A stretch of DNA of 64,000 nucleotides from Paracoccaceae bacterium (lineage in GTDB: Bacteria > Pseudomonadota > Alphaproteobacteria > Rhodobacterales > Rhodobacteraceae): the NCBI GenBank assembly GCA_014879735.1, contig JACSRN010000011.1, forward strand, positions 1 to 64,000, in the 5' to 3' direction. How positions within the stretch are numbered: position 1 is the stretch's first letter; the number at the start of each line of letters is the position of its first letter. The position numbers and the translations under genes are program-made. Positions 2,910 through 55,934 of the stretch are shown one piece after another. Under the pieces are notes generated by a model, which had not been told where the DNA came from, did not search any database, and was given only the letters and a program-made list of their open reading frames with translations.

Positions 2910-3675
2910 TCTGGCAAAACTGACCTGGATGGAGATCCGCGACCTGCCCAAGGATGACGGCGTGGTGGTCGTGCCCTTCGGCTCGCTGGAACAGCACGGG
3001 CCGCATATGTCGATCGACACCGATCTCTACTTTGCCGACCGCTTTCTCGACCTTGCGCTCGAAAAGCTGCCGGAGGAGGTCGCCTGCTGGCGGCTTCCGA
3101 TCCTGCCCGTCTCGCGCAGCGTCGAACATGTGGGCTTTCCCGGTTCGCTCTGGCTGACCAGCGAGACGCTCTTGAAGGTGATCGAGGAGATGACGGCGGG
3201 GCTTGCCGCCTCGGGGTTCCGCCGGGTGGTGTTCCTGAACTGCCACGGCGGCAATCTTGCCATTCTCGAGGTCGCCGCCCGCGATGTGCGGATCCGCACC
3301 GGCATGATGGTCTTTACCGTCTTCCCCCCGGCGCTGATGCCCGATCCGGTCGAGATCGATGACCGCGAGCGTGTCTATGGCATCCATGCGAACGACTGGG
3401 AAACCAGCGTCATGCTGGCCCTGTCGCCCGAACGGGTGCGCAAGGATCTGCTGGATGTGTCCTATCCGTCGTTCCAGTCCGACACCCTGCGGCTGGAGCA
3501 ATCGGCCGCCAATGTCGCCTGGACATCGCGGGACCTGTCGAAGACCGGCACCTTCGGCGACGCGCGTGGCGCCACCGCCGAACGCGGCTGGCAACGGATC
3601 GGTCCGATGATCGACCGGCTGGCCGGCGCCCTGACCGAAATCAGCACCTTCGAACTTTCACCCCCCCAGGGATAG
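2896..3675 (+). CDS. Creatininase-family metallohydrolase
   Basis: The family (creatinine amidohydrolases and relatives acting on cyclic or formyl amides) uses two divalent metals. The ATG at 2896 gives 259 aa, the normal length, and overlaps the ligase gene by 14 bp; a longer frame upstream lacks family residues. Metal-binding residues are visible as E32 and H34 in the GSLEQHGPH segment, D43, H117 in NCHGGN and E169 in the HANDWETS segment. It is cytoplasmic, with no signal peptide. The presence of a cytosine-deaminase-like gene in the cluster suggests a ring-opening hydrolase for a nucleobase-, hydantoin- or creatinine-like compound. Family call high, substrate unknown. Confidence 0.87.
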   Translation: MSKRDLAKLTWMEIRDLPKDDGVVVVPFGSLEQHGPHMSIDTDLYFADRFLDLALEKLPEEVACWRLPILPVSRSVEHVGFPGSLWLTSETLLKVIEEMTAGLAASGFRRVVFLNCHGGNLAILEVAARDVRIRTGMMVFTVFPPALMPDPVEIDDRERVYGIHANDWETSVMLALSPERVRKDLLDVSYPSFQSDTLRLEQSAANVAWTSRDLSKTGTFGDARGATAERGWQRIGPMIDRLAGALTEISTFELSPPQG

Positions 3676-30656: not shown

Positions 30657-31325
30657 TCAGAGTTCCGGAACGATCAGGTCGGCCACCGGACCATCCCGGT
30701 GCAGCTCGGCGCCTGTCAGCCGCTGAATCGCCTCGAGGCCGAGGGACGGCAGCTTTTCGCGCAGCATGAAGCGGCCGTCCGCGATGTCGATCACGGCAAG
30801 CGACGTATATACCCGCGTGACGCATCCGACACCCGTCAACGGCAGGGTGCAGCGGCGGAGCAGCTTGGGCTGGCCGTCCTTGGTCACATGGTCGGTGATG
30901 ATCGCCACCCGCTTTGCGCCATGGACGAGATCCATCGCGCCGCCAACAGCCGGCACCCCCTTGGGTCCGGTCGACCAGTTCGCCAGATCGCCGTTCTCGG
31001 CCACCTCATAGGCACCCAGGATCGCTACGTCGAGATGGCCGCCACGCACCATGGCGAAGCTGTCGGCATGATGAAAGAACGCCGCACCGGGCCGCAGAGT
31101 CACCGCCTTCTTGCCCGCGTTGATCAGATCCCAGTCCTCCTCGCCGGGGGCGGGGGCCTCGCCGAAGTTGAGGATGCCGTTTTCGGTATGGAAGATCGCA
31201 TGCCGCCCCGGCGGCTGATACTGGGCAACCTTTTCAGGAAAGCCGATCCCGAGGTTCACATAGGCGCCATCGGCAATATCCTGCGCGGCGCGCCAGGCGA
31301 TCTGGTTGTTCGAGAGTTTGTCCAT
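30657..31325 (-). CDS. 3-oxoacid CoA-transferase subunit B
   Basis: This is the beta subunit (222 aa) of a family I CoA-transferase of the acetoacetate/3-oxoadipate type. The catalytic glutamate that forms the acyl-CoA thioester intermediate is E48 in the HTENGIL motif. GIGFPEKVAQ near residue 26 and GHLDVAILGAYEV are typical. It begins three bases after the A subunit and ends the amine-catabolic array. The substrate could be succinate/3-oxoadipate or acetoacetate; sequence alone does not separate these. Confidence 0.9.
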   Translation of the reverse strand: MDKLSNNQIAWRAAQDIADGAYVNLGIGFPEKVAQYQPPGRHAIFHTENGILNFGEAPAPGEEDWDLINAGKKAVTLRPGAAFFHHADSFAMVRGGHLDVAILGAYEVAENGDLANWSTGPKGVPAVGGAMDLVHGAKRVAIITDHVTKDGQPKLLRRCTLPLTGVGCVTRVYTSLAVIDIADGRFMLREKLPSLGLEAIQRLTGAELHRDGPVADLIVPEL

Positions 31326-31328
31326 GTC

Positions 31329-32063
31329 TCAGGCCTCCAGCGGGTAGGCCGCACCAGCGCGCGCCAGATCTTCTTCCTGGACCGGCGACGCGACCTCGAC
31401 AATCTTCTGGACGAAGATGCCCGGGGTCACGACAACCTCGGGGTCTATGCCGCCTGCAGCAAGAATGCGCCTTGCCTGCACGATGGTCTGGGTCGCGGCC
31501 ATGCACATCAGCGGGCTGAAATTGCGCGCCGCCATCCGGTAGGTCAGGTTGCCCTGCGTATCGGCAAGTTCCGCCTTCACCAGGGCAACGTCGGCCTTCA
31601 GCCAACGCTCCTGTACATAGCGGCGGCCGTCGAATTCGGCGACGGGCTTGCCGCGCGCCAGATCGGTTCCGACGCTGGTCGGCGTGTAGAAGGCCGGGAT
31701 GCCGGCACCGCCGGCACGAATGCGCTCGGCCAGGGTGCCCTGCGGGACGAGTTCAAGCTCCACCGATCCGTCGCGATAGGCCGCGTTGAACACGCTGGCA
31801 TCGGCCGAGCGCGGGAAGGAGCAGATGATCTTGCGCACCATCCCGGCCTCGATCAGCGCGGCCAGCCCCAGATGGCCATTGCCCGCGTTGTTGTTCACCA
31901 GCGTCAGATCGCGGGGATGGCCTGTTGCCCGATGGCGGTCAAGCAGGGCATGGATCAGCTCGATGGGGGAACCGGCCCCACCGAAGCCGCCAATCATCAC
32001 CGTCACGCCATCTTCGATGTCGGCCACGGCTTCGGCCAGGCCCGTCACGCGCTTGTCCATCAC
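31329..32063 (-). CDS. 3-oxoacid CoA-transferase subunit A
   Basis: This is the alpha subunit (244 aa) of the same CoA-transferase. The glycine-rich CoA loop is GGFGGAGSPIELI near residues 24-36, and VNNNAGNGHLGL and the YTPTSVGTDLARGK segment are typical of PcaI/ScoA. It is directly upstream of subunit B and 34 bp downstream of the RidA-type gene. It implies that the pathway of this array ends in a free short-chain acid that must be activated. Confidence 0.9.
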   Translation of the reverse strand: MMDKRVTGLAEAVADIEDGVTVMIGGFGGAGSPIELIHALLDRHRATGHPRDLTLVNNNAGNGHLGLAALIEAGMVRKIICSFPRSADASVFNAAYRDGSVELELVPQGTLAERIRAGGAGIPAFYTPTSVGTDLARGKPVAEFDGRRYVQERWLKADVALVKAELADTQGNLTYRMAARNFSPLMCMAATQTIVQARRILAAGGIDPEVVVTPGIFVQKIVEVASPVQEEDLARAGAAYPLEA

Positions 32064-32097: not shown

Positions 32098-32481
32098 TCA
32101 GGACGCGACGACGGCAGTCGCGGCGATCTCGACCAGCAGGTCGTCGGCGATCAGGGCGCCGGCCTGCAGCAGCGTGGTCGCCGGGCGGATGTCGCGAAAA
32201 ACCGCACCATGGGCGCGGCCGACCGCCTCCCAGTCGTCCATCCGCTTCAGGAACACCCGCGTTTCCACCACATCCTCCAGCGCGGCGCCCACCTCGGCCA
32301 GTGCCGCGGCGATGCGCGAAAGCACCTCGCGCGTCTGCCCCTCGGCATCGCCCGGGCAGACCGCACCACCCGGCCCCGCGGCCGAGGTGCCGGAAACCGC
32401 AACGAAATTCCCGGCCCGGACGGCACGCGAATAGCCGATAGCGGCGCCCCAGGCGTTCGTGACTTCGACCTTCTGTCGCAT
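32098..32481 (-). CDS. RidA/YjgF-family enamine/imine deaminase
   Basis: This small trimeric protein (127 aa) hydrolyses reactive enamines or imines made by PLP enzymes or amine oxidases. The carboxylate-binding arginine is R99 in the RPATTLLQ motif near the C-terminus; FVAVSGTSA and ETRVFLKRMDDW are also family features. It sits between a PLP-enzyme gene and the CoA-transferase genes. The local flavin amine oxidases would also release imines, so a detoxifying role is sensible. Confidence 0.9.
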   Translation of the reverse strand: MRQKVEVTNAWGAAIGYSRAVRAGNFVAVSGTSAAGPGGAVCPGDAEGQTREVLSRIAAALAEVGAALEDVVETRVFLKRMDDWEAVGRAHGAVFRDIRPATTLLQAGALIADDLLVEIAATAVVAS

Positions 32482-32495
32482 ATGGCTGTCTCCCG

Positions 32496-33803
32496 TTACG
32501 CCGGTGTTCTGGGCAGGGCCCGATCGAATGCCGCAACGATCTGCTGGATGTCCTGCTCGGTCATCGCTGTAGAAAAGGCCATGAGCCCATTCGCCGCGAT
32601 CAGCACCCCTTCGTCGAACAGGGCACGCGCCAGTGCCGCCACCCGCTTCGGGCCATCGCCTGCGGCAAAGGTCGAACGGAAATCGCTCAGTTCGACACTG
32701 CTGAGATGAACCCGGCGCAGGGAGCCAAGACCCGTCACCTGCCCATTGACGCCATGCCGGCGGAAACAGTCGCCGATGCCCGCATCAAACAACGCGCCCA
32801 GACGGTCGAGCCAAGCGAAGGCTTCGGGCGTCAGGTCTTCCAGTGCCGCGACACCCGCCACCATCGACATCGGATTGGCACTGAAGGTGCCGCCATGCGG
32901 CACCGCCGGGCTGCCGGCCGTGGGATCGAAGACCGACATCACGTCGCGCCGCCCGCCAATCGCCCCGATGGGGAAGCCGCCACCGATCACCTTGCCCAGG
33001 GTGGTCAGATCGGGTTCGACGCCGAAGCGGCCCTGCGCGCCATTGTAGCCCAGCCGGAAGGTGATGACCTCGTCCAGGATCAGCAATGCGCCGATCTCTC
33101 GGGTCACGCGGCGCAGCATCTGCAGGAACTCGGGTCGTGCCGGAACAAGACCGGCGCGGTTCGGCATCACATCGACCAGAACCGCGGCCAGCGAATTGCC
33201 CTTGGCCCGCAGGATCGCCTCGGCGACGGCTGTGTTGTTGAACGGAATGACCACGACATCGTCCAGCACCCCTTGCGGCGTACCCTTTGCCGTGGGGACC
33301 GAGACAGGGCTGTCGATCTCGCCCCAGGTGTCAGGCCGCGCTTCCTGGCTGGTTTCGGCAGGATCGTAGGTGCCGTGATAGGCCCCCTCGCATTTGGCGA
33401 ATTTCGGCCGGCCGGTGAAGGCACGCGCGACCTTGATCGCATTCATCACCGCCTCAGTGCCGGAATTTGTATAGCGCAACTGTTCGACCGTGGGCAGGCG
33501 CTCGCACAGCATCTCGGACAGCCGGATCTCGCTTTCGGTCGGCATCCCGAAGCAGAGACCATCCTCGATCTGCCGCCGCGCCGCTTCGCGGATGCGGTCG
33601 CTGCCATAGCCGTGGATCAGCGCGGTGAAGTTGCCCACGGCATCGATGCGGTCGTTGCCGTCGACATCGGTGATGCGGCAGCCGTGACCCCGCGCGGCAT
33701 AGACCTGATAGGGCTGGCGAAAGACGGTGTGACGGGTATTCCCGCCGGGCATCACCTGCCGGGCGCGGTCATAGAGGAGGGCGGATTTGGGGGTCTCGAG
33801 CAT
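32496..33803 (-). CDS. Class III aminotransferase, glutamate-semialdehyde-aminomutase-like
   Basis: This is a fold-type I PLP enzyme (435 aa). The Schiff-base lysine is K271 in TTLGKVIGGGFP and the PLP-pyridine aspartate is D244 in LILDEVI. The YTNSGTEAVMNAIKVARAFTG segment and GGTFSANPM resemble HemL-like proteins used in catabolism rather than tetrapyrrole synthesis. It probably removes or moves an amino group from an amine breakdown product. It lies 14 bp downstream of the TMADH-like gene and before RidA. Confidence 0.87.
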   Translation of the reverse strand: MLETPKSALLYDRARQVMPGGNTRHTVFRQPYQVYAARGHGCRITDVDGNDRIDAVGNFTALIHGYGSDRIREAARRQIEDGLCFGMPTESEIRLSEMLCERLPTVEQLRYTNSGTEAVMNAIKVARAFTGRPKFAKCEGAYHGTYDPAETSQEARPDTWGEIDSPVSVPTAKGTPQGVLDDVVVIPFNNTAVAEAILRAKGNSLAAVLVDVMPNRAGLVPARPEFLQMLRRVTREIGALLILDEVITFRLGYNGAQGRFGVEPDLTTLGKVIGGGFPIGAIGGRRDVMSVFDPTAGSPAVPHGGTFSANPMSMVAGVAALEDLTPEAFAWLDRLGALFDAGIGDCFRRHGVNGQVTGLGSLRRVHLSSVELSDFRSTFAAGDGPKRVAALARALFDEGVLIAANGLMAFSTAMTEQDIQQIVAAFDRALPRTPA

Positions 33804-33817
33804 GGCCGGTCAGCCTT

Positions 33818-35869
33818 TCAGGGAACAAGGTCGAAGGGGGAAGCCGCGGCGAGGTCGATCCGCTCGCGCCGGAACTGTACGCCGATCTCGAACTCCTCGG
33901 CAAAGCGGTGGCCGGAATAGACCGCCTGGAAGATTGCCGCCGGCGCCTCACAATCACCAATCCGCGCCACCGGCGGACCGCCCTCGATGGCCGCGAGTTC
34001 GGCAAACAGCCCCCCATGCGGCACCCGCGCCGTCACCAGCACCAACGCCGCGATGGCCAGCAGGGACTCCGCCCCGGTGCGGGCATCATAAAGCACTGCC
34101 CGGCCGGGTTCCGTGGCCTTCAGCCCGGTATGCGTCACCATTCGCACGCCCAGATCCTGAAGGCGCCGGGCGGTGCGCACATTCTCCAGCGTGTTCACCG
34201 TGAAGGCCGATACATCTGCAGCCGGTGTGACCAGCGTCACCTGCGATCCCAGACGGGCCAGTTTTTCCGCGATGACCGCGCCCATGTAGTAATGGTCGTC
34301 ATCATAGATCATCACCGCGCCGGGCAGCGGGCAGCGGTCGCGCAGGATGTCATCGGGCGTATAGGTTGGCAGCACGGGCGAAAGCGGCAGCGGCCGATGC
34401 GCCGCGCGGCCAAAACCATCGCTGCGCCAGGACGCCCCGGTCGCCAACACCACCTGATCGGCGCCGAATTCGACGATATCCTGCGCGGTAAGATCGCTGT
34501 CCAGATAGACGTTGACATTCGGCATCTTGCCGATCTGTGTCACCCGCCAGTCGCGGACCCGCAGCCATTCCCGCAGGCCGGGCAGTTCGCCCTCCAGCGT
34601 CACCCGCCCGCCCAGCCGGGTCTCGCGTTCGGCCAGCGTCACCTGATAGCCGCGCTGACCCAGCGCGCGCGCGCATTCCAGCCCGGCCGGACCGCCGCCG
34701 ACGACAAGGATCGATTTTTCCGATTTGGCGGGTTTGATTCGTTCGGGATGCCAGTCCCGGCGCCATTCGTCACCGATGGTCGGGTTTTGCGTGCAGCGCA
34801 GGTTCACCATTGCGAAATGGCTCGACACGCAGATGTTGCAGCCGATGCATTCGCGGATGTCCTCGTAGCGCCCTTCCTCGATCTTCTTCGGCAGGAACGG
34901 ATCGGCAATCGACGGCCGCGCGGCGCCGATCATGTCCAGAACGCCGCGGCGGACCAGACTGGCCATCGTGTCAGGCGAGGTGAAGCGGCCAACGCCGATC
35001 ACCGGCCTTGTGGTCACGCCCTTGATGCCCAGCATGAAGGGCTCGTGATCGTTCTCGGGGGCAAAGCGCGAGGTGGGCGAATCGTCCGCCCAGGTGCCGA
35101 CCACCAGATCCCAGAGGTCGGGCAGTTCGGCCAGCATCGCGATCGCCTCGATCCCCTCGTCGGCGACCCGCAGCCCCTGATCACCGAACAACTCGTCAAC
35201 GATCAGCCTGACCGAGATGGCCACGCCATCACCCGCCCCCTCGCGGGAGACCTCGATCAGTTCCTGCAGCAGCCGGACCCGGTTCTTCAGGCTGCCGCCA
35301 TATTCGTCGCTGCGCTGATTGCGCGGCGACAGGAACTGGAAGGCGATGGTGGAAAAGTTTGCATCCACATTGACGATGTCGAAACCTGCCTTGCGCGCCC
35401 GGACGGCTGCGGCCTTCCACCAGCCCAGCAGGTTGCGGATATCGGCCTTGTCCATGGCCCGGACCTGCACCGGATGATAGCCGCTGACCGGCCGGTCCAT
35501 CGGTCCCAGCGGCACCTCCCGGGTCAGCCGGTTGCCGTTGTAATAGGCGGGATAGGCCAGTTGCACCCCGGCCAGCGATCCATGCGCATGCACCGCGTCG
35601 CACATCAGCGCCAGGGGCGGGATGTCGCCGTCGTCCCAGAGCATTTGCAGCACTTCCGGCATCAGATCACCCGTGGGATGCACCGAACAATGCTCGGTAT
35701 TCACCACGGCCCAGCCGCCCTCGGCCTTGATGCCCCGCATCCGGGCATGGGCCTGCGGGCGCAGGTTGCCCATGCCGTTGCAATGCGGCGTCTGGTAAAA
35801 GCGGTTGCGGGCAGTATGTGGCCCGATCTTCACGGGCTCAAAGAGGATGTCGAAGCGGGGGTCGCGCAT
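33818..35869 (-). CDS. Trimethylamine-dehydrogenase-like FMN/4Fe-4S flavoprotein
   Basis: This 683-aa protein follows trimethylamine/dimethylamine/histamine dehydrogenases end to end: an FMN TIM barrel (about 1-335), a 4Fe-4S site (C341, C344, C347, C359) and an ADP-binding Rossmann part beginning with VVGGGPAG near 390. C30 in FYQTPHC matches the cysteine that binds FMN covalently. The start at 35869 gives the family N-terminus RDPRFDILFEP. Substrate residues differ: position 60 is His (Tyr in TMADH, Gln in DMADH), W260 matches W264, W355 is replaced by H351, and the Y169/H172 pair reads D169/F172. Oxidation of another amine is therefore likely. Electrons would pass to ETF or a similar carrier. 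Confidence 0.86.
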   Translation of the reverse strand: MRDPRFDILFEPVKIGPHTARNRFYQTPHCNGMGNLRPQAHARMRGIKAEGGWAVVNTEHCSVHPTGDLMPEVLQMLWDDGDIPPLALMCDAVHAHGSLAGVQLAYPAYYNGNRLTREVPLGPMDRPVSGYHPVQVRAMDKADIRNLLGWWKAAAVRARKAGFDIVNVDANFSTIAFQFLSPRNQRSDEYGGSLKNRVRLLQELIEVSREGAGDGVAISVRLIVDELFGDQGLRVADEGIEAIAMLAELPDLWDLVVGTWADDSPTSRFAPENDHEPFMLGIKGVTTRPVIGVGRFTSPDTMASLVRRGVLDMIGAARPSIADPFLPKKIEEGRYEDIRECIGCNICVSSHFAMVNLRCTQNPTIGDEWRRDWHPERIKPAKSEKSILVVGGGPAGLECARALGQRGYQVTLAERETRLGGRVTLEGELPGLREWLRVRDWRVTQIGKMPNVNVYLDSDLTAQDIVEFGADQVVLATGASWRSDGFGRAAHRPLPLSPVLPTYTPDDILRDRCPLPGAVMIYDDDHYYMGAVIAEKLARLGSQVTLVTPAADVSAFTVNTLENVRTARRLQDLGVRMVTHTGLKATEPGRAVLYDARTGAESLLAIAALVLVTARVPHGGLFAELAAIEGGPPVARIGDCEAPAAIFQAVYSGHRFAEEFEIGVQFRRERIDLAAASPFDLVP

Positions 35870-35934: not shown

Positions 35935-37428
35935 TCAGCGCAGCTTGACCCAGGTGGCCTTCAGCTCGGTATATTTCTCGATCGCATGCAGCGACTTGTC
36001 CCGGCCGATTCCTGATTGCTTGTAGCCACCGAAGGGCATGGTGATGTTGCTTTCGTCGAAGTTGTTCACCCAGACCGACCCGGCGCGCAGCCGTCGCGCG
36101 GTGTTCAGCGCGGTGTTGATGTTGTCGGACCACACCGCCGCCGCCAGACCGTAGATCGAGTCATTGGCGATACGGACGGCATCATCGGCATCCTTGAAGG
36201 CGATCGTGGCGAGGACCGGCCCGAAGATCTCTTCCTGCGCGATGCGCATGCCGTTCTTCACGCCGTCGAAGACCGTCGGCTCGACGAAGTAGCCGCCGCT
36301 TTCGGTGCGGACGCGCTGGCCGCCGGCGATCAGCTTCGCCCCCTCGCCCTTGCCGATGTCGATGTAGTCGAGAACACGATTCATCTGATCCTCGGTGACG
36401 ATGGCACCAAGCTTGGTGGCGGGATCCAGCGGGTCGCCCGGCTCCAGCGTCTTGCCGACGGCGATCACCTTGTCGATGAACGCATCCTTGATGCTGTCCT
36501 GCACCAGCAGGCGCGAGCCGGCATTGCAGACCTCGCCCTGGTTGAAAAAGATGCCAAAGGCTGCGGCGGTCGCCGCCTCGTCCAGATTGCCGCAATCCGC
36601 CATGACGATATGCGGCGTCTTGCCGCCGCATTCCAGCGCGATGCGCTTCATGTTCGACTGCGCCGAATAGCCGAGGAAGAACTTGCCCACCTCGGTGGAG
36701 CCGGTAAAGGTCACGGCATCCACGTCCATATGCAGGCCAAGCGCGCGGCCGGCCGTCTCGCCCAGCCCCGTCACGACGTTGAACACGCCCTCGGGGATAC
36801 CGGCCTCCAGCGCCAGTTCGCCCAGCCGGATCGCCGACAGCGGCGACTGTTCGGCCGGTTTGAGAATGACCGAATTACCCGCCGCAAGCGCCGGGCCAAG
36901 CTTCCATGATGCCATCAGAAGCGGAAAGTTCCACGGCACGACGGCCGCGACGACACCAAGCGGTTCGCGGGTGATCATGGCCAGAACGTTGTCGGCGGTC
37001 GGCGCGATCTCGTCGTAAAGCTTGTCCACCGCTTCGGCATACCAGGCGATGGTATTGGCCGAGCCAGGCACGTCGACCGACAGCGCATCCGAAATCGGCT
37101 TGCCCATGTCGAGCGTTTCAAGCAGCGCGAGTTCCTCGGCATGTTCGCGCATCAGTTCGGCAAAACGTTGCAGGATCTTCTTGCGCTCGGCCGGGGCGCG
37201 GCGCGACCAGACCCCCTTGTCAAAGGCCGCCCGTGCCGAGCGGACGGCGGCATCCACATCCGCCGAGTCCAAGGACGCCACTTCGGTCAGCACCTTCCCG
37301 GTCGCCGGGTTGATGGTGCTGAATGTCTTGCCGGACAGCGCATCGACCAGCCTGCCGTCGATCAGCGATTTTCCGACAAAGCGATGGGCTGCTGCCGCGT
37401 CATGCCATTTCGTTTGGTTGATCGTCAT
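35935..37428 (-). CDS. Aldehyde dehydrogenase, PuuC-like
   Basis: This NAD(P)-dependent aldehyde dehydrogenase (497 aa) has the catalytic cysteine C301 in NQGEVCNAG, general base E266 in LECGGK, and cofactor residues N167 (PWNFPL) and K190. It matches PuuC along its length, including the AEELALLETLDMGKPI segment and the C-terminal GYKQSGIGRDKSLHAIEKYTELK. PuuC oxidises gamma-glutamyl-aminobutyraldehyde and related amino-aldehydes. The upstream gene set (spermidine-type importer, PuuB-like oxidase) supports oxidation of an amine-derived aldehyde. It has its own promoter at 37455-37496. Confidence 0.9.
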   Translation of the reverse strand: MTINQTKWHDAAAAHRFVGKSLIDGRLVDALSGKTFSTINPATGKVLTEVASLDSADVDAAVRSARAAFDKGVWSRRAPAERKKILQRFAELMREHAEELALLETLDMGKPISDALSVDVPGSANTIAWYAEAVDKLYDEIAPTADNVLAMITREPLGVVAAVVPWNFPLLMASWKLGPALAAGNSVILKPAEQSPLSAIRLGELALEAGIPEGVFNVVTGLGETAGRALGLHMDVDAVTFTGSTEVGKFFLGYSAQSNMKRIALECGGKTPHIVMADCGNLDEAATAAAFGIFFNQGEVCNAGSRLLVQDSIKDAFIDKVIAVGKTLEPGDPLDPATKLGAIVTEDQMNRVLDYIDIGKGEGAKLIAGGQRVRTESGGYFVEPTVFDGVKNGMRIAQEEIFGPVLATIAFKDADDAVRIANDSIYGLAAAVWSDNINTALNTARRLRAGSVWVNNFDESNITMPFGGYKQSGIGRDKSLHAIEKYTELKATWVKLR

Positions 37429-37627: not shown

Positions 37628-38437
37628 TCAACCCGGCTGCGAAAAGTTGGCCCTGTGTTCCAGAACTGTCGCCAGCCGCTGCGCCGAGTTTCGCAATTCC
37701 ACCTCGACCAGGGATATCTTCTGCTCGATCAGGGATTTTATCGTCCCCGTGACGCAGATGCTGAGCTGCACATCGAGACCGGATACGAAGATCGGTACGG
37801 CCACACCGGCAAAGCCGTCCACATCCTCGCCGATGCAGAAGGCGATGCCGGATTTGCGCACATCGGCCAGTTCGGCCAGCAGCGCATTCCGATCCGTCTT
37901 CGTCAACGCCGTGAACCGCGGCAGATCTCCCGCCAGCGCGGCCTCGACCACCGGGATATCCTGAAACGCCAGGATCGCCTTGGCCGAGGCGCCCGTATGC
38001 GGCGTGATCTCCTGGCCCGGCAGGATATAGGCGCGAAGATGGTTGTCGGGCGCAACCATCTCGACACTGCGGACCGTGACGCCGCCGAACCGCGCGACAA
38101 AGCAGGCCTCCCCCGTTCTTTCGGTCAGGTCCAGCAGGATCGGGCGGGCCACCATGCGCAGCCAGCCATCGCTTGACCCCGCAAAGAGCAGCCGTTCCAG
38201 TCGCTCGCCCAGCCGGCACGAGGCCGAGGGCGGCGCGGTCATTTCGACCAGACCAACCTCCGCCAGGCTACGGATCAGCCGATAGGCAGTAGCCTTCGGC
38301 AGACCCAGCATTTCGGCAACCACGGTCGGCGAGATCCCCTCGGGAAAGCCGGAGATTGCCTCCAGAAGGCGAACGTAGCGCTCCAGCGGCGTGTCCGCTG
38401 CTTTCCCGGGTTCACCAGATTGCTGCTGCACGCTCAT
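37628..38437 (-). CDS. IclR-family transcriptional regulator
   Basis: This is a 269-aa regulator with an N-terminal winged HTH (YVRLLEAISGFPEGISPTVVAEMLGLPKATAYRLIRSL) and a C-terminal GAF-like IclR effector domain containing GEACFVARFGG and the PHTGASAKAIL loop. It overlaps the PuuB-like gene by four bases and so is part of the importer-oxidase operon, giving autoregulation with its targets. The aldehyde dehydrogenase promoter lies 130 bp downstream of its stop. It probably senses the imported amine or its aldehyde product. Confidence 0.9.
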   Translation of the reverse strand: MSVQQQSGEPGKAADTPLERYVRLLEAISGFPEGISPTVVAEMLGLPKATAYRLIRSLAEVGLVEMTAPPSASCRLGERLERLLFAGSSDGWLRMVARPILLDLTERTGEACFVARFGGVTVRSVEMVAPDNHLRAYILPGQEITPHTGASAKAILAFQDIPVVEAALAGDLPRFTALTKTDRNALLAELADVRKSGIAFCIGEDVDGFAGVAVPIFVSGLDVQLSICVTGTIKSLIEQKISLVEVELRNSAQRLATVLEHRANFSQPG

Positions 38438-39801
38438 GTCCTCTTGGCCAGCCTTCTGTCATGGTGATCGAAATACCGCATCGCCAAGGGGGCGACCAAG
38501 CCCGTTCCGTTGAAAAACGGCAGCGTCGGAAACTTGCCCACGTCAAAGGCCGAGGTGCCGTCGCCCCTGCCCAGGATGCGCGCCGCCAGCTTGCGACCAA
38601 ACAGCGTGCCCAAGGGTACGCCGGCAAAGTTGTAACCCATGGCGTAGTGAATGCCATCCTGCGTACCAATATGCGGCATGAAATCGAACGTGCCAGCGCA
38701 ATAGCCCGTCCAGGAGCGGCTGATCCTGGCCCCCTGCAGATCCGGCATGATCTCGACCATGCGCCGGTAAAGCGCCGGCATCAGCGAGGTGGAGGTCGTG
38801 TTCAGCCGTCCCGTCATGCCGCCAAACAGAATGCGTTCGGAATCCGGGGCGGGCCGGATGAAGTCGATGTTCATCTTGGTGTCCAGGTAGGTGCGCCGCC
38901 TGGGCAGCACCTTGTCGATAAGGCCGGCCGGCAAAACCTCCGTCGCCATGACGAAGCCGCGGAACGGCACCAGTCGCCGGGCGAACCATTTCAGGTTGCG
39001 CGGCGTATAGCCATTGGTCGCGACGATCACCTGCCCCGCCGAGATTGCCCCCTTGTCGGTGCGCACCGTCTTGCGCCGGCCATCGGCGTCGATCCCGACG
39101 ACGGTGGTGGACGGAAAGAAGCGCACCCCCGCGCCTTTCGCACGCGCCACCAGCCCTGCGTGGTAGAGGCCGGGATGGATCGAGCCGAGGTCGGGGACCA
39201 CAACACCACCAAAATAGCGGTCGGAGGCGAGTTCCGACTGCTGGTCCGCCTTGCTGATGACCTCGTAGTCGAAGCCGAGGCGGCGCTTCATGTGGTCCAT
39301 ATCCTCGACCAAATCACGCAGATGCGGTTCGGAATTAGCCGAGATCAGCCGGCCGCAGCTGCGCCGGTAACACGCGATACCTTCCGCCTCGACGAAGGAT
39401 TCCACACCTTTGAGCGCTTCGTCCAGTTCACGGTAAACCCGGACGGCATAGTCTGGACCAACATGCTGTTCCAGCCACCCAACGGAACGTTTCAGTGTCC
39501 GGCCCAGAAATCCTGCGTTCATCCGGGCCGCCCCACCGCCGATTGCACCGGCATCGGCGACGACCACCTCAGCCCCGCCCCGCGCCAGGTGGATCGCGGC
39601 GGAAAGGCCGGTGATACCCCCACCGACGATCACGACCTCGGCCTTGCTCGGCAGCGGGTTGGGGTCTGCGGCATCTGCCGCCGAAGGCGGCGCCGCCATC
39701 CACCAATAGGGTTCTTCACGATAGTCGGGGGCAAATATGTCCATACTGGCGGGCCTTTCCGGCGAATGACCTTGCGCGGTCAAGAAGCTGATCGATGACA
39801 T
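38434..39801 (-). CDS. FAD-dependent amine oxidoreductase, PuuB-like (DAO fold)
   Basis: This flavin oxidase of the D-amino-acid-oxidase superfamily has 455 aa. The ATG at 39801 follows AAGGTGAGGG; a later ATG at 39744 is possible. The FAD Rossmann motif is VVIVGGGITGLSAAIHLA near residues 55-72, after a typical PuuB-like N-terminal arm (YREEPYWWMA). The SDRYFGGVVVPDLGSIHP segment and C-terminal GYNFAGVPLG also fit gamma-glutamylputrescine oxidase and relatives. It would oxidise a primary or secondary amine to an aldehyde for the PuuC-like enzyme. No glutamyl-amine synthetase (PuuA) gene is in the window, so the true substrate may be a free amine or amino acid. Confidence 0.87.
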   Translation of the reverse strand: MSSISFLTAQGHSPERPASMDIFAPDYREEPYWWMAAPPSAADAADPNPLPSKAEVVIVGGGITGLSAAIHLARGGAEVVVADAGAIGGGAARMNAGFLGRTLKRSVGWLEQHVGPDYAVRVYRELDEALKGVESFVEAEGIACYRRSCGRLISANSEPHLRDLVEDMDHMKRRLGFDYEVISKADQQSELASDRYFGGVVVPDLGSIHPGLYHAGLVARAKGAGVRFFPSTTVVGIDADGRRKTVRTDKGAISAGQVIVATNGYTPRNLKWFARRLVPFRGFVMATEVLPAGLIDKVLPRRRTYLDTKMNIDFIRPAPDSERILFGGMTGRLNTTSTSLMPALYRRMVEIMPDLQGARISRSWTGYCAGTFDFMPHIGTQDGIHYAMGYNFAGVPLGTLFGRKLAARILGRGDGTSAFDVGKFPTLPFFNGTGLVAPLAMRYFDHHDRRLAKRT

Positions 39802-39806
39802 GTCCC

Positions 39807-40610
39807 TCACCTTCTCTTTCGCGCGATGGCCAGCGCCGCAACCATCAGGACGCTGGTGATCACCACCATGGTGACAGCGGCGGCAATGATGGTGGGGTCC
39901 AGCTGTTCGCGCAGGCCGGTGAACATCTGCTTGGGCAGGGTGCGCTGTTCCGGGCCGGCAATGAACAGGACCATCACAACCTCGTCGAACGAGGTCGCGA
40001 AGGCGAAGACAGCACCGGCACCCACGCCCGGTGCGATCAAGGGGAGCATGACGCCCCTGAAGGCCGTGACCTTGCCCGCGCCCAGGCTTGCCGCCGCCCG
40101 CATCAGGGTGAAATCGAACCGGGTCAGGGTTGCGGTCACGGTGATGATGACAAAGGGCGTCGCCATGAGGGTATGGGCGACCACCACGCCCCAGAAGGTG
40201 TAGTTCAGCCCGATGGGAGAGAAGAAGACGAACAGGCCCAGGCCCAGCACGACCACCGGCATCAGCATCGGCGCGATCGCCAGCGCCATGACCAGCCGCC
40301 GCAGCGGAAAATTGGCGTTCACAAGACCGATGGAGGCCAATGTGCCAAGCGTGGTCGCAAGCACGGTCGTGGCCAGCGCGATGACGACGCTGTTCAGCAG
40401 GGCGCCAACCCAGATTTCTGAACCGAACAGCGCTTCGAACCAGCGCAACGAGATGCCGGGGAACGGATAGGTGAACCACGGCGCCGAGTTGAGCGAGATC
40501 GGCAGCGCCGCCGCAAGCGGCAGGATCAGCAGCGTCAGTGACAGGCCGACGAAGATGTAGAGCGGCAGGCGAATGCGCAGCGGCAGATCGGCATAGCGTT
40601 TCTGATGCAT
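39807..40610 (-). CDS. Spermidine/putrescine-type ABC permease (PotC-like)
   Basis: This is the second membrane subunit (267 aa) of a spermidine-type importer with six hydrophobic segments and the EAA loop RAAASLGAGKVTAFRGVMLPLIAPG near residues 171-195 that docks on the ATPase. Its stop is six bases from the oxidase start. Its ATG overlaps the preceding permease stop. The start codon lies inside the palindrome TCTGATGCATCAGA, noted separately. Confidence 0.9.
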   Translation of the reverse strand: MHQKRYADLPLRIRLPLYIFVGLSLTLLILPLAAALPISLNSAPWFTYPFPGISLRWFEALFGSEIWVGALLNSVVIALATTVLATTLGTLASIGLVNANFPLRRLVMALAIAPMLMPVVVLGLGLFVFFSPIGLNYTFWGVVVAHTLMATPFVIITVTATLTRFDFTLMRAAASLGAGKVTAFRGVMLPLIAPGVGAGAVFAFATSFDEVVMVLFIAGPEQRTLPKQMFTGLREQLDPTIIAAAVTMVVITSVLMVAALAIARKRR

Positions 40611-41872
40611 CAGAACCTCCCCGACGAATGGGTCGAGATGTAGCGGGACAACGGCAGCGCGATCACGGTCGCGCCGGCGATCAGCACCAGGCTCAGCGCC
40701 GAGGCGAGGCCCCAGTTCAACTGTTCATTGGTAAAGCGGGCAATGAAGAAGCTGACCATCTGGTCGCCCGGCCCGCCAACCAGCGCCGGTGTCAGATAGA
40801 AGCCCAGACACAGCACGAATGTCAGAAGTGCGCCTGCCGCAATTCCCGGCACGGCCTGTGGCATGAACACCGACAGATGTGCGGTCAGGGGTGAGGCACC
40901 GAGGCTGCGCGCGGCACGAACATGGCTCGGCGGGATGGCACGCATCACACTGATCATCGGCAGAACCGTGAAGGGAAGCTGGATCTGCACCATCGCCAGC
41001 ACTGTCGCGAAACGGGTGTAGAGCAGCGGCAGCGGTTCGGAAACCAGCCCGCCGGCGATCAGCAGGTCATTCATCACGCCGTTGCGCTGCAGCATGACGA
41101 TCCAGGACATCGTGCGAACCAGAAGCGAGGTCCAGAATGGCAGAAGAACAAGGAACACCAGCATCTTGCCGATGAGGCCGGACGAGGTTGCGACAACATA
41201 GGCCATCGGATAGCCGATCAGCACTGTCAGGACCGTCACGACAAGGCTGATTACGATCGTGCGCAGATAGATGGCCGGGAAATCATAGGTCCCGTCGGTG
41301 GCCGCCTGGCCATCGGCCTTGAACTTGACATCCGCACCCAGCGCCCATTTCAGGTAGAACAGCGAATAGGATGCGGATCCCGCGGCCATTGCCTGCCAAA
41401 CGCCCGGCCCGGCCCAGGCAGGGTTGCTGTCGATGACCGCCTGCCGGATTTCCGCCGCATCCCGTGTGGCCAGATCCTCGGTTGCAAGGCGCGAGGCATC
41501 CATGATCGCGGCGGAGCCGCCCTCGACCCCGTATTCCATGCGTCGCGCCAACGGCCGCAGCAGCCCGGATTTCTTTGCCGCCCTCAGTTCGTCGACCAGC
41601 GTCGCAAAGACGTCATCGCCGGGCAGCGCCGGGCTGGCAGACAGGACGATCTGTTCCACCGTCGCCGGCAGGGCGGCAGCGATCTCGCGATCCTGGAAGG
41701 CCGTCTTGACGATAATCGCCAGCGGAATGACCAGAAACATCGCCAGAAAGGCAATCAGTGGCACCGCGGGCAGCATGGCGGCCAGCTTCCGCCGGGCCGC
41801 CGCCATGCGGCGATCCGTGACGGCCTGCTCTGCCTGGGTGATCGGCATTTCAGGTGTGATCGGCATTTCCAT
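40610..41872 (-). CDS. Spermidine/putrescine-type ABC permease (PotB-like)
   Basis: This is the first membrane subunit (420 aa), longer than usual because of an extra periplasmic region of about 130 residues after the first membrane helix (near 70-200), a form common in alphaproteobacterial opine/spermidine-type permeases. The EAA loop is RAARSLGASPLTAHLSVFMPQAVPG near 332-356. The N-terminus has a short MPIT-containing repeat. A 112-bp spacer with two hairpins separates it from the receptor gene. Confidence 0.9.
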   Translation of the reverse strand: MEMPITPEMPITQAEQAVTDRRMAAARRKLAAMLPAVPLIAFLAMFLVIPLAIIVKTAFQDREIAAALPATVEQIVLSASPALPGDDVFATLVDELRAAKKSGLLRPLARRMEYGVEGGSAAIMDASRLATEDLATRDAAEIRQAVIDSNPAWAGPGVWQAMAAGSASYSLFYLKWALGADVKFKADGQAATDGTYDFPAIYLRTIVISLVVTVLTVLIGYPMAYVVATSSGLIGKMLVFLVLLPFWTSLLVRTMSWIVMLQRNGVMNDLLIAGGLVSEPLPLLYTRFATVLAMVQIQLPFTVLPMISVMRAIPPSHVRAARSLGASPLTAHLSVFMPQAVPGIAAGALLTFVLCLGFYLTPALVGGPGDQMVSFFIARFTNEQLNWGLASALSLVLIAGATVIALPLSRYISTHSSGRF

Positions 41873-41984: not shown

Positions 41985-43022
41985 CTACTGTGCGACCCAG
42001 GCCGAGAACTTTGCGTTCAGCGCATCGCTGTTCTTGGCCCAGAAGGCGCCATCCTGGGCAAGCGCCCCCTCGCTGTTCTGCGGCGCCGAGGGAAGGTTTG
42101 CCAGCGTATTCGCGTCGATCGATCCGGCCGCCTCGGCTACCGTGGGGCCATAGGCGATGTACTTGCTCAGCTCGGCATTGGCAGCAGGCTGGATCGTCGA
42201 GACGATGAAGGCACGCGCGGCCTCGCCATTCCTGGTCCCCATCGGAATGGTCCACATGTCGAAGCCGCGAACCTGATCCGACCAGGCGATGCCCAGATCG
42301 GCGTTTTCGTTGGTGTTCGCATCGGCAATCCGGCCATTCCACGCCAGCGACATGACGACCTCGCCCGACATCAGCAGCTGTGCCGGCTGGGCGCCCGCCT
42401 CCCACCAGACGATATCGCCCTTGATCGTGTCGAGCTTGGCAAAGGCGCGATCCACGCCTTCCGGCGTCGACAGCATTGCATAGACATCACCCGCGGCCAC
42501 CCCATCCGCGAGCAGCGCGACCTCAAGGGTGTCGACCGGGCTCTTGCGGAACGACCGTTTGCCGGGGAAGGCTGTGGTATCGAAAATGTCGACGACGCTG
42601 TCGGGGCCGGCGGCGAAGGCATCCTTCTTGTAGGCGAGGATCGTCGCATAGGTGCTGGTGCCCACCGCGCAATCGAGAAGCGCGCCGTCGACCAGGCTTG
42701 CCGAGGCAAATATCTCTTCCGAGCCGATCGGTTCCAGCAGACCCTGCTCGCAGGCTGTTGCGGCCGTCTGCGGGTCCATGTCCACCACGTCCCAGACCAC
42801 GTTTCCGCTGTCGACCATGGCGCGTAGCTTGGCGAGTTCGCCGCTCCAGCTGTCCTGCACGATCCTGGTGCCGGTCGCCGCGGCATAGGGGTCCATGAAG
42901 GCCTTGGTCTGGGCCTCCTGCAGCGCGCCGCCCCAGGACACGACCGTCAGTTCCTGGGCCGAGACCGTCCCGGCGAGCAATGTCGAGGCCGAGGCCGTGA
43001 CCAGTGCGCGTATCATCTTCAT
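41985..43022 (-). CDS. Spermidine/putrescine-type ABC substrate-binding protein
   Basis: This is a PotD/PotF-class periplasmic receptor (345 aa). The start is set at the ATG at 43022, seven bases from an AGGGAGA site; an ATG two codons upstream (43028) is nearly as good. A signal peptide of about 20 residues ends in AGTVSAQE. The mature protein begins LTVVSWGGALQEAQ, typical of the family. Conserved tryptophans and aspartates around VVWDVVDMDPQT fit amine or betaine binding, but the ligand is unknown. It is the second gene of the minus-strand operon. Confidence 0.9.
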   Translation of the reverse strand: MKMIRALVTASASTLLAGTVSAQELTVVSWGGALQEAQTKAFMDPYAAATGTRIVQDSWSGELAKLRAMVDSGNVVWDVVDMDPQTAATACEQGLLEPIGSEEIFASASLVDGALLDCAVGTSTYATILAYKKDAFAAGPDSVVDIFDTTAFPGKRSFRKSPVDTLEVALLADGVAAGDVYAMLSTPEGVDRAFAKLDTIKGDIVWWEAGAQPAQLLMSGEVVMSLAWNGRIADANTNENADLGIAWSDQVRGFDMWTIPMGTRNGEAARAFIVSTIQPAANAELSKYIAYGPTVAEAAGSIDANTLANLPSAPQNSEGALAQDGAFWAKNSDALNAKFSAWVAQ

Positions 43023-43047
43023 TCCCATTCTCCCTGTTGCATGTATT

Positions 43048-44142
43048 TCAGGCATCCAGCGCCCAGGCGTCTTCCCACGCCCAGCCCACATGGACCGTCT
43101 GACCCTTGACCGGGTGGATCGCCGCCGAATGCGCGGCACTTTTCACCACCAGGCTTTCCTTCCCGGCCAGTTCCACAACCGTGCGGATCTGGTCGCCGCA
43201 GAAGATCGAATCCGACACCTTTGCAGCCAGCGAGCCTTCGAACGGCTGGCCGGACATGCGCAGCGCCTCGGGCCGGATGGCGGCGGTGGACAGGCCGCCT
43301 GTCACGACATGGCCGGTCGTGCGGGCCGCAACCTGGGTTCCATCCGCCAGCCGCAGGGTGGTTCTTTCACCCCGGGTTTCGGTTACGCGGCCTTTGAGGC
43401 AGTTGTTGTCGCCCACAAACTCGGCCACGAAGCGGTTTTCGGGCCTGGCATAGATGTCTTCGGCCGAGCCGAGTTGCTGGACCTTGCCATCGTTGAAGAT
43501 GGCAATCCGGTCCGACATGGTCAGCGCCTCGTACTGGTCGTGCGTCACGTAGACGACAGTCAGGTTGAAGCGCTGCGCGATCTGGCGAATCTCGAACTGC
43601 AGATGCTCGCGCAGCTTCTTGTCCAATGCGCCAAGCGGCTCGTCCATCAGGACGATGCTTGGTTCGAACACCAGCGCCCGCGCCAGCGCCACGCGCTGCT
43701 GCTGACCGCCCGACAGCATTCCCGGACGGCGGTCTGCCAGTTGCGCCAGATGCACGGTTTCCAGAACGGCGCGAACCCTGCGATCGATCTCGGCCCGGGG
43801 CAGGCGGCGGACCTTCAGCCCATAGCCCACGTTCTCGGCCACCGTCATATGCGGAAACAGCGCATAGTTCTGGAAAACCATGCCAATGTTGCGCTTTTCG
43901 GGCGGCATCATGTGCACCGGCGCGCCGTCGATCCTGATTTCACCGGTTGTCGGATATTCGAACCCGGCAAGCATCATCAGTGTCGTCGTCTTGCCGGATC
44001 CTGACGGGCCCAGCAGCGTCAGGAACTCGCCCCTGCGGATCGAAAGATTGAGATCGCGCACGACGAGATGGCGTCCGTCATAGGTCTTGGTAATGGCTGA
44101 GAGCACCACATGGCCGTGATCGCTCGGCGCGGCGTCGAGCAT
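43048..44142 (-). CDS. Spermidine/putrescine-type ABC ATPase (PotA-like)
   Basis: This is the ATPase subunit (364 aa) of the importer. Walker A GPSGSGKTT is at residues 45-53, signature [15 protein letters not shown] near 140, Walker B IVLMDEPLGALD near 160, and a C-terminal TOBE domain from about 280. The ATG at 44142 follows TGGAGGAG. It is the first gene of the amine array, with its promoter and operator at 44162-44187. Confidence 0.92.
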   Translation of the reverse strand: MLDAAPSDHGHVVLSAITKTYDGRHLVVRDLNLSIRRGEFLTLLGPSGSGKTTTLMMLAGFEYPTTGEIRIDGAPVHMMPPEKRNIGMVFQNYALFPHMTVAENVGYGLKVRRLPRAEIDRRVRAVLETVHLAQLADRRPGMLSGGQQQRVALARALVFEPSIVLMDEPLGALDKKLREHLQFEIRQIAQRFNLTVVYVTHDQYEALTMSDRIAIFNDGKVQQLGSAEDIYARPENRFVAEFVGDNNCLKGRVTETRGERTTLRLADGTQVAARTTGHVVTGGLSTAAIRPEALRMSGQPFEGSLAAKVSDSIFCGDQIRTVVELAGKESLVVKSAAHSAAIHPVKGQTVHVGWAWEDAWALDA

Positions 44143-52984: not shown

Positions 52985-53860
52985 ATGCCCCTTTGTGAAG
53001 ACAGCATCGGCGTGATGAACTTTCACTACATCCGCCACACCTTCGATCGCTTCCTTGACGATGCCGGCGGGGCCGGCGTGTCGCGGGTCGAACTCTGGGC
53101 GGCGGCGCCGCATTTCTACATCGGGGACAAGACGCTGGCCGATGCGCGCGCCCTCGGGCGCGACCTGCGCGGGCGCGGACTGCGGCTGGTGGCCTTTACC
53201 CCCGAACAATGCGTCTATCCCATCAATATTTCCGCAAAAGAGCAGGAGCTTCGCACCCGGTCTCTGCGCTATTTCCTTGATTCCATGGAATTTGCCATCG
53301 AAAGCGGCGCGCCGGCCGTCGTGGTCACGGCGGGCGGCGGCTACCGCGACGAGCCCGCGGCCGAAGCGCTGAACCGCTGCGTCGATTCCATGGGCATCCT
53401 GTGCGACCGGGCAGAGGAACTGGGCCTGGATCTGTGGATGGAGGCCCTGCCCGATGCCTTCGCCAATATCGTCCGCTCGGCGCAAGAGATGCGGCACCTG
53501 TTCGACATTCTCGACCGGCGCGTCCTTCATGCCATCTGTGACGTGGCCGGCACGGTGATGTGCCACGAGACGCCGGAAGACTATTTCACCCATCTGGGCG
53601 ACCGGGTGGCGCATGTGCATTTCACCGATACCGATGCCCAGGGCAGCCATCTCGCCTGGGGCGAGGGCATGATCGACCTGGACCGGCTGATCGCCTTGCT
53701 GCGGGCGCAAGGCTACGACGGCACGCTGACGGTCGAACTGACAAACTGGAAATACAACGTCGATCCCGGGCCGCCGCTGAGGCAATGCGTGGCCGCCATG
53801 CGAAAGGCGCTTGGCAAAGCCCCGGCTCAGGCTTCGCGGGAGGTGCGGCGCAATGGATGA
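52985..53860 (+). CDS. frlC: FrlC-like sugar-amine 3-epimerase (AP endonuclease 2 fold)
   Basis: This is a TIM-barrel isomerase/epimerase of 291 aa (ATG at 52985; the GTG just before it is an alternative). It aligns well with fructoselysine 3-epimerase: VELWAAAPHFYIGD for the FrlC IEIWGGRPHAF segment, AFTPEQCVYPINIS for GYTPETNGYPYNM, and GYDGTLTVELTNWKYN for GYEGYCTVEL. The metal quartet is E153, D186, H212 and E251. FrlC interconverts psicosyl- and fructosyl-lysine, feeding the FrlD/FrlB route. The gene overlaps the downstream oxidoreductase start by eight bases. Family sure; the Amadori role is strongly suggested by FrlB- and FrlD-like genes sharing operators. Confidence 0.83.
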   Translation: MPLCEDSIGVMNFHYIRHTFDRFLDDAGGAGVSRVELWAAAPHFYIGDKTLADARALGRDLRGRGLRLVAFTPEQCVYPINISAKEQELRTRSLRYFLDSMEFAIESGAPAVVVTAGGGYRDEPAAEALNRCVDSMGILCDRAEELGLDLWMEALPDAFANIVRSAQEMRHLFDILDRRVLHAICDVAGTVMCHETPEDYFTHLGDRVAHVHFTDTDAQGSHLAWGEGMIDLDRLIALLRAQGYDGTLTVELTNWKYNVDPGPPLRQCVAAMRKALGKAPAQASREVRRNG

Positions 53861-55895: not shown

Positions 55896-55934
55896 CCCGG
55901 CCGGCTGCCGCGGGGCCTGGCACCGCACCGCCGG

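Follow-up and report, generated by a model that had tools for sequence, protein, structure and literature searches.

A subfamily of TMADH/HADH-family flavoproteins with replaced active-site residues, and its operon, in Alphaproteobacteria

Trimethylamine dehydrogenase (TMADH) and histamine dehydrogenase (HADH) belong to a flavoprotein family known for cationic amines. In TMADH, we take Y60, W264 and W355 to form the aromatic bowl and Y169, H172 and D267 to be the catalytic triad, while C30 is presumably the carrier of the 6-S-cysteinyl flavin mononucleotide (FMN) in amine dehydrogenases. The family reaches substrates beyond trimethylamine and histamine, as PMC5500553 indicates for Pno of Agrobacterium S33, a relative of HisD. 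Here we analyzed a 64,000-nucleotide stretch of a Paracoccaceae genome (assembly GCA_014879735.1, contig JACSRN010000011.1, positions 1 to 64,000; "the window" hereafter), which encodes a member of this family. Its product belongs to a monophyletic subfamily in which the Tyr169/His172 pair and further pocket residues are replaced, and it lies in an operon whose gene order recurs in part of that subfamily. The gene in question is:

33818..35869, minus strand: TMADH/HADH-family flavoprotein with H60, Q103, D169, F172, W260, D263 and H351; C30 and the 4Fe-4S cysteines kept

Fold and active-site residues

The coordinates 33818-35869 given by a first-pass annotation of the window are correct, and the coding strand is the minus strand, on which the gene is intact (683 codons, 683 amino acids) and starts with an ATG at 35869 preceded by aaaggagcagcc, a ribosome site of the AAAGGAG type. 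A plus-strand reading frame over the same positions was rejected as the gene, being a mirror open reading frame.

Among solved structures the protein matches 6de6 (698 bits), 3k30 (692 bits), 6l6j (615 bits) and 1djn (520 bits), and the characterised proteins closest to it are histamine dehydrogenases (50% identity, root-mean-square deviation (rmsd) 1.1 Å). An AlphaFold2 model built from 48 related sequences (the structure alignment took 48 of 81 sequences, i.e. the window and 80 loci) has a mean pLDDT of 92.4. It superposes on HADH 3k30 with a Z of 62.5 and an rmsd of 1.1 Å over 671 residues and, in the comparison with TMADH proposed by the first-pass annotation, on 2tmd with a Z of 59.6 and an rmsd of 1.8 Å over 678 residues. 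The TMADH/HADH fold, an old yellow enzyme (OYE) barrel plus nucleotide-binding domains, extends over the full length of the protein, in which the domains PF00724 and Pyr_redox are recognized. TMADH and dimethylamine dehydrogenase (DMADH), the baseline chosen in that annotation, were not the right one, as the protein sits among histamine-dehydrogenase-type proteins, which are without Y60 and W355 anyway.

Aligned with TMADH, the protein keeps C30, R222 (R221 in the window protein), W264 (W260), D267 (D263), R322 and the four cluster cysteines C345, C348, C351 and C364 (C341, C344, C347 and C359). Replaced are Y60 by H60, Y169 by D169, H172 by F172 and W355 by H351, and E103 of TMADH is Q103. 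Since the stretch 162-183 aligns to TMADH 1djn gap-free and both Tyr and His are absent from it in the window protein, the changes at positions 169 and 172 are firm. H351 was placed by an ungapped count, as the residue four past the third cluster cysteine; position 355 is gapped in all rows of the MAFFT alignment except TMADH itself. Of the Y169-H172-D267 triad the third residue alone is kept (D169, F172, D263), the aromatic bowl Y60/W264/W355 reads H60, W260 and H351, and Gln60 and the Asp at the 355 position, as in the HADH structures 3k30 and 6de6, are likewise replaced by H60 and H351. Careful alignment bore out the absence of Tyr or Gln at position 60 and the loss of Y169 and H172, while D263, the surviving third member of the triad, had been missed by the first-pass annotation. 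Among the 118 family sequences outside the subfamily Y169 stands in 117 and H172 in 114, so that the triad is not strictly invariant there either; we therefore name the protein a divergent relative of the TMADH/HADH family, whose amine dehydrogenase activity is predicted rather than proven. No paper on Tyr-169 or His-172 mutants of TMADH turned up in the open literature searched.

Signature and phylogeny of the subfamily

Relatives came from a contig scan, of whose 579 confirmed hits the best 80 were kept, and from additional plasmid and genome searches. The alignment comprised 134 rows, 16 of the subfamily (window, L009-L017, L108-L112, L137) and 118 outside it; the latter were gathered with the window protein as query and sample the TMADH/HADH family, not the wider OYE superfamily. 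Position 60 is His in 16/16 subfamily rows, as opposed to Glu (65), Gln (40), Met (5), Tyr (5) or Val (3) in the 118 outside rows, the five Y60 rows (TMADH, L068, L083, L103, L106) all lying outside the clade. Position 169 is Asp (14) or Ser (2) in the subfamily and Tyr (117) or Ala (1) elsewhere; position 172 is Phe in all 16 members and His (114), Ala (2) or Lys (2) elsewhere; position 355 is His in all 16, and outside Asp (97), Asn (17) or, once each, Thr, Trp, Val and His. The idea that position 355 is special through the Trp of TMADH was rejected on these counts; what is special is the His of the subfamily. Eleven other positions are shared by 15 or all of the 16 members and by no more than 7 of the 118 outside rows. 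Eight lie in the barrel half (N57, E72, Q103, W151, S173, I223, V256 and H275; outside occurrence 0 for E72, W151 and I223, 1 for V256, 3 for H275 and 7 for Q103) and three in the last third (M577, H580 and A645).

With the later-found L146, L161 and L162 the subfamily has 19 distinct members, same-place duplicates (L160 and L157 with L009, L156 with L010, L159 with L013, L155 with L161, L158 with L162, L145 with L146; judged by a 100-base stretch or by coordinates) being counted once. All 19 carry C30, for which a covalent bond to FMN is predicted, together with H60, Q103, F172, W260, D263, H351 and the four cluster cysteines, and position 169 is Asp in 17 and Ser in two. The closest pairs are 98.4, 97.1, 95.3 and 93.2% identical, and the members are thus not all independent. 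The subfamily forms one clade with an SH-aLRT support of 100 in a tree of 132 rows (16 members; of the 134 rows, two that contain several unknown residues were left out) and still does so, with a support of 99, after removal of the signature columns (54 of 135 rows, 17 members). H60, D169, F172 and H351 mark a monophyletic subfamily and are not due to chance. The residue readings of the first-pass annotation hold throughout: C30, the cluster cysteines and W264 (W260) are kept in 19/19 members, H60 and H351 are real (0/118 and 1/118 outside), and D/S169 with F172 occurs in 16/16 subfamily rows and 0/118 others. The "rebuilt active site" it proposed is invariant in a clade that, in the phylogeny it called for, does not depend on the signature.

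At strict cut-offs the subfamily is sparse. With E<=1e-250, only the window's own genome was found among 394 genomes of the same family; with E<=1e-262, 2 of 398 genomes across the phylum and 5 of 384 in another family; and at >=59% identity 6 of 385 across the class, the window's included. Among the Alphaproteobacteria concerned are Mesorhizobium, Phyllobacterium, Rhizobium and Xinfangfangia; the orthologue in Phyllobacterium zundukense is WP_100003350.1.

For a TMADH/HADH-family protein the loss of the Tyr/His pair is striking, but in the OYE superfamily it is, judged from the sequences, not without parallel. A [Tyr/His]-x-x-His pair in the 162-183 stretch was found in 1/7 distant OYE-like paralogues of the window's own genome (gaps make the second position uncertain), and a universal occurrence of this pair in the OYE superfamily was rejected on that count. 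A second OYE-type flavoprotein gene in the window (53811-57440), 31% identical to the first, is without the pair in the motif stretch; a metallopeptidase gene of the M81/MlrC family adjoins it on the opposite strand. Other small groups among the relatives (L049 and L069; L051 and L082; L022, L063, L071, L078 and L084; L028, L044 and L047) also have an altered pocket, with position 172 being Ala or Lys or position 60 being Met or Val; these are possible further substrate switches.

The operon and its conservation across loci

The gene is one of twelve consecutive minus-strand genes running from 44142 down to 30657 of the window, the others being:

43048..44142, minus strand: ATP-binding cassette (ABC) transporter ATPase with TOBE domain
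41985..43079, minus strand: substrate-binding protein, best solved relatives gamma-aminobutyrate (GABA)-binding proteins, 5/8 GABA-site residues kept
40610..41872, minus strand: ABC transporter permease (named after its annotated orthologue in Phyllobacterium)
39807..40610, minus strand: ABC transporter permease (named likewise)
38434..39804, minus strand: DAO-family FAD amine/amino-acid oxidoreductase (158 bits with the best NCBIfam model, that of L-pipecolate oxidase AmaA, whose cut-off of 600 it does not reach)
37628..38437, minus strand: IclR-family regulator (BhcR 81.5 bits, PcaR/PcaU/PobR 64.6 bits, both under cut-off)
35935..37428, minus strand: PuuC-like aldehyde dehydrogenase (641 bits, below the cut-off of 850; in 10/10 operon loci)
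32496..33803, minus strand: class III aminotransferase (AT3), beta-transaminase-like (best solved relative 6k8h, 447 bits)
32098..32481, minus strand: RidA-family protein (imine/enamine deaminase family)
31329..32063, minus strand: 3-oxoacid CoA-transferase subunit A, pcaI/scoA family (TIGR02429, 341 bits, cut-off 128.5), 34 bases past RidA
30657..31325, minus strand: 3-oxoacid CoA-transferase subunit B, pcaJ/scoB family (TIGR02428, 300 bits, cut-off 243.55)

Judging from their spacing and conserved order these genes are probably co-transcribed. A 10-gene block from the ATPase to RidA has the same order in ten loci (window, L009-L013, L017, L137, L161 and L162). The slot following RidA is taken by a gene for a beta-keto-acid cleavage enzyme (BKACE) in 8/10 of them (L017, L009-L013, L161 and L162) and by the 3-oxoacid CoA-transferase in the window; none of six other operon loci compared first has CoA-transferase genes, which are present in the distant relative L146. 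There, a divergent IclR gene is followed, in this order, by genes for an aldehyde dehydrogenase, the TMADH/HADH-family protein, a DAO-family enzyme, a second class III aminotransferase, AT3, the two CoA-transferase subunits (A, then B) and a thiolase scoring 663 bits with the PcaF (3-oxoadipyl-CoA thiolase) equivalog model (cut-off 597). In L138 and L015, too, BKACE genes lie beside the subfamily gene. A 3-oxo acid could thus be dealt with in three ways that recur around the subfamily, by CoA-transferase, by CoA-transferase with PcaF, or by BKACE. The operon is well supported, and its make-up matched no described operon in the parts of the literature accessible to our searches; the same searches, within these parts, returned no matching operon for homarine (N-methylpicolinate) catabolism, which also has no support in the data, and nothing matching among proline-betaine and N-methylproline operons, and both candidates were rejected.

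We compared 17 subfamily loci with 71 controls, i.e. loci of family members from outside the subfamily, counting a match from 35% identity and 100 bits upwards, the queries being mostly window proteins, which favors near relatives, and the mean flanks about 16.6 kb in controls and 19.4 kb in the subfamily. AT3 and the DAO-family gene each occur in 9/17 vs 1/71 loci, IclR in 10/17 vs 1/71, RidA and BKACE each in 8/17 vs 0/71, and CoA-transferase subunit A in 2/17 vs 0/71. M19 peptidase (membrane-dipeptidase) genes lie in four subfamily loci (L015, L139, L140, L142) and in 0/71 controls. In loci without annotation, genes were called as open reading frames picked by codon GC and some were named by reading alone. 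By Pfam, neighbors in L139 include a short-chain dehydrogenase/reductase (SDR), an AstE/AspA-type deacylase and a gene of the arginase family, and L140 has an amidase; further SDR-like genes in L139-L142 were named by reading only, and L014 is flanked by MaoC-like, alcohol-dehydrogenase and DOPA-dioxygenase-family genes.

The window's genome contains genes for electron transfer flavoprotein (ETF) and two PcaF genes over cut-off (contigs C4 and C143), which do not lie beside the operon; no core operon gene was matched at these two loci, apart from a 31% aldehyde dehydrogenase match on C4. On C4 (10216-13191) the PcaF-type thiolase gene directly adjoins an ETF gene pair, and two upstream genes were assigned, by reading only, to a Baeyer-Villiger-like flavoprotein and an SDR. 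In the window itself, a putative cyclase gene (PF04199; 29181-30161, plus strand) is convergent with the CoA-transferase genes, and a creatininase-family amidohydrolase gene is found at 2869-3675.

Possible substrate, competing explanations and known systems

Several products of the operon give clues to the substrate. The best solved matches of the binding protein are the GABA-binding 6dgv (200 bits) and 4eq7 (192 bits), ahead of agropine and mannopine binders. R205 of the GABA site we take to be the carboxylate holder. According to PMC12999171 the site consists of eight listed side chains, among which D228 holds the GABA amine; W9, W202, R205, D228 and Y264 are kept identically in the window protein and seven orthologues. 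By its sequence the protein fits an amino acid with carboxylate and amine some carbons apart, not exactly GABA. AT3 matches 6k8h best, followed by ForI, glutamate-semialdehyde aminomutases and beta-phenylalanine aminotransferase.

On balance we lean towards the view that the flavoprotein is an FMN/4Fe-4S amine dehydrogenase rebuilt for a zwitterionic beta- or omega-amino acid, and that its operon encodes a pathway to a 3-oxo acid, probably 3-oxoadipate. The pocket would have been rebuilt once, in the ancestor of the subfamily, from one for a simple cationic amine to one for a zwitterionic, carboxylate-bearing amino acid. H60 and H351, in place of the Gln/Glu and Asp of the HADH-type pocket, could hold a carboxylate instead of reading a cation, D169 could hold the substrate amine, and F172 would remove the Tyr-His relay; this mechanism we infer from the positions of the residues. 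As C30, R221, W260 and D263 are kept, amine oxidation at FMN with electron flow through the 4Fe-4S cluster and ETF is the economical reading: provided the enzyme behaves like its relatives, FMN would be bound covalently via C30, a C-N bond of the substrate would be oxidized to the imine, leading either to N-demethylation or to the loss of a terminal amino group, and electrons would pass from FMN to the cluster and presumably on to ETF.

In such a pathway the GABA-type ABC importer would take up the compound, the TMADH/HADH-family and DAO-family enzymes would oxidize its amine groups, and the aldehyde dehydrogenase the aldehyde set free. AT3 would convert the remaining beta-amino group to the 3-oxo acid, with RidA clearing imine or enamine by-products, and the CoA-transferase would activate the 3-oxo acid for thiolysis. 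If the 3-oxo acid is 3-oxoadipate, as seems probable, the substrate would have six carbons and be of the beta-lysine or (N-methyl)homoproline (pyrrolidine-2-acetate) type. A homoproline could be N-demethylated (in its N-methyl form), oxidized in the ring and converted by the aldehyde dehydrogenase to 3-aminoadipate and by AT3 to 3-oxoadipate, whereas a beta-lysine derivative could undergo oxidation of its end amine followed by the aldehyde dehydrogenase and AT3 steps; on chemical grounds both routes are conceivable, and we rank neither. The specific proposal of an undescribed pathway from a C6 beta-amino acid, be it beta-lysine, homoproline or N-methylhomoproline, via 3-aminoadipate and 3-oxoadipate to the tricarboxylic acid cycle, with a His/His/Asp zwitterion pocket replacing the Tyr/His pair and the cation bowl, is more tentative, and we put it forward as possible rather than probable. 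No paper joining 3-aminoadipate, beta-lysine, 3-oxoadipate, homoproline or pyrrolidine-2-acetic acid was found in the open literature searched.

A number of observations weigh against this interpretation. No substrate is known for any member of the subfamily, and loss of Tyr169/His172 could lower amine oxidation. Three residues of the GABA site, T13, F100 and F102, have become L, S and Y, alike in the window protein and seven orthologues, and 6k8h, which we assume to act on beta-amino acids, is deposited under the mere title "Aminotransferase class-III". The BKACE proteins scanned (four of ten neighbors: L009, L011, L138 and L015) stay under every curated cut-off, with 179, 172, 200 and 187 bits against the 3-oxoadipate model NF053568 (cut-off 350) and a higher 236-259 bits against the 3-keto-5-aminohexanoate model (cut-off 382); passing neither and scoring better with the latter, they do not prove 3-oxoadipate as the BKACE substrate. 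The window's genome has five BKACE matches elsewhere and none in the operon, and the flanks of L137 (Phyllobacterium) have neither BKACE nor CoA-transferase. CoA-transferase genes lie beside the subfamily gene in only 2/17 loci and PcaF in 1/17; PcaF (1/17 vs 1/71) and the second aminotransferase (1/17 vs 2/71) are not enriched by count, and the ABC ATPase (9/17 vs 9/71) and aldehyde dehydrogenase (9/17 vs 3/71) also occur in controls. Subfamily loci are mutually related and not independent events. Only some members have the operon: in L014, L016 and L139-L142 the gene has different neighbors, and L138 and L015 share BKACE only (L138 also IclR), so that a single substrate need not serve the whole subfamily.

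Other explanations have to be considered. The enzyme might be of HADH type and serve another cationic amine (a diamine or an aromatic one), the histidines tuning size and the beta-keto-acid genes being unrelated neighbors. Its nearest characterised relatives are indeed histamine dehydrogenases, and by family matches a PuuC-like aldehyde dehydrogenase and a transporter of the polyamine-binding-protein kind are present; PuuC-like aldehyde dehydrogenases and such transporters are also found in polyamine operons. However, the HADH-type Gln/Glu60 and Asp355 are both His, BKACE or CoA-transferase recurs beside the subfamily in differing arrangements, and the binding protein keeps the Arg and Asp of the GABA site, so that we regard this as unlikely, albeit the strongest competitor. 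Less probable still is a betaine-type N-demethylase feeding a carnitine-like route in which BKACE would cleave 3-dehydrocarnitine. N-methylproline and dimethylglycine demethylases are relatives of this kind, BKACE enzymes include carnitine-pathway members, BKACE adjoins the gene in 8/17 loci, and the family member Pno of Agrobacterium S33 releases methylamine from 6-hydroxypseudooxynicotine according to PMC5500553. Yet among the neighbors scanned or annotated (not every neighbor was scanned) there is no Rieske demethylase or carnitine dehydrogenase, and the transaminase, the DAO-family enzyme and PcaF are not known as parts of the carnitine route.

A reductive enzyme that has lost amine oxidation, like other Fe-S members of the OYE group, would be in line with the wider family matches, which include 2,4-dienoyl-CoA reductase and 2-naphthoyl-CoA reductase, and with the 6/7 distant own-genome paralogues that are also without the [Tyr/His]-x-x-His pair in the 162-183 stretch. 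Conservation of C30, the 6-S-cysteinyl FMN site of the amine dehydrogenases, in 19/19 members and the oxidative kinds of the remaining operon enzymes speak against it, and we consider it improbable. We give hardly any credence to the idea that the protein is a normal trimethylamine or dimethylamine dehydrogenase in which the substitutions are simply tolerated: fold and cofactor residues are alike and W264 and D267 are kept, but Y60, W355, Y169 and H172 are all replaced in 19/19 members, the five Y60 rows fall outside the clade, and no methylamine gene was recognized among the operon genes. The first-pass annotation had considered a new amine substrate likely, and residues and operon support this indirectly; the substrates it suggested were mostly simple cations, whereas importer and downstream genes point to a carboxylate-bearing amino acid. 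Its observation is confirmed, and its interpretation was right in direction but incomplete and tied to the wrong reference family.

If the pocket works as inferred, natural enzymes could do without Tyr169 and His172, regarded as catalytic machinery in TMADH, and zwitterionic amino acids would have come within reach of a family otherwise associated with cationic amines. The operon offers a testable route to a catabolic pathway that would link amine oxidation with the 3-oxo-acid end of metabolism.

Compared with the pcaI-pcaJ-pcaF route for 3-oxoadipate, the window has a CoA-transferase of the pcaI/pcaJ family, and L146 has CoA-transferase genes together with a PcaF gene that is over cut-off; unlike in that route, these genes are tied here to amine-oxidizing genes and a transaminase, and pcaF lies away from the window operon. 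No aromatic ring-cleavage gene was recognized in the window operon or in L146 (a DOPA-dioxygenase-family gene lies nearby in L014). HisD, the 6-hydroxypseudooxynicotine amine oxidase of Pseudomonas geniculata (6l6j), resembles the window protein in fold (Z 59.3, 46% identity) but itself has A30, E60, Y169, H172 and a Val at the 355 position. TMADH of Methylophilus (1djn/2tmd) shares the fold (Z 59.6, 40% identity), C30, the cluster cysteines, W264, D267 and R222, and differs in Y60, W355, Y169 and H172, all replaced in the window protein, and in E103, which is Q103. The HADH enzymes of Nocardioides simplex (3k30) and Rhizobium sp. 4-9 (6de6) differ from it by Q60 (H60), Y169 (D169), H172 (F172) and the Asp at the 355 position (H351), and share with it the full-length fold (Z 62.5 and 61.6, 50 and 51% identity), C30, the four cluster cysteines, W264 and R222.

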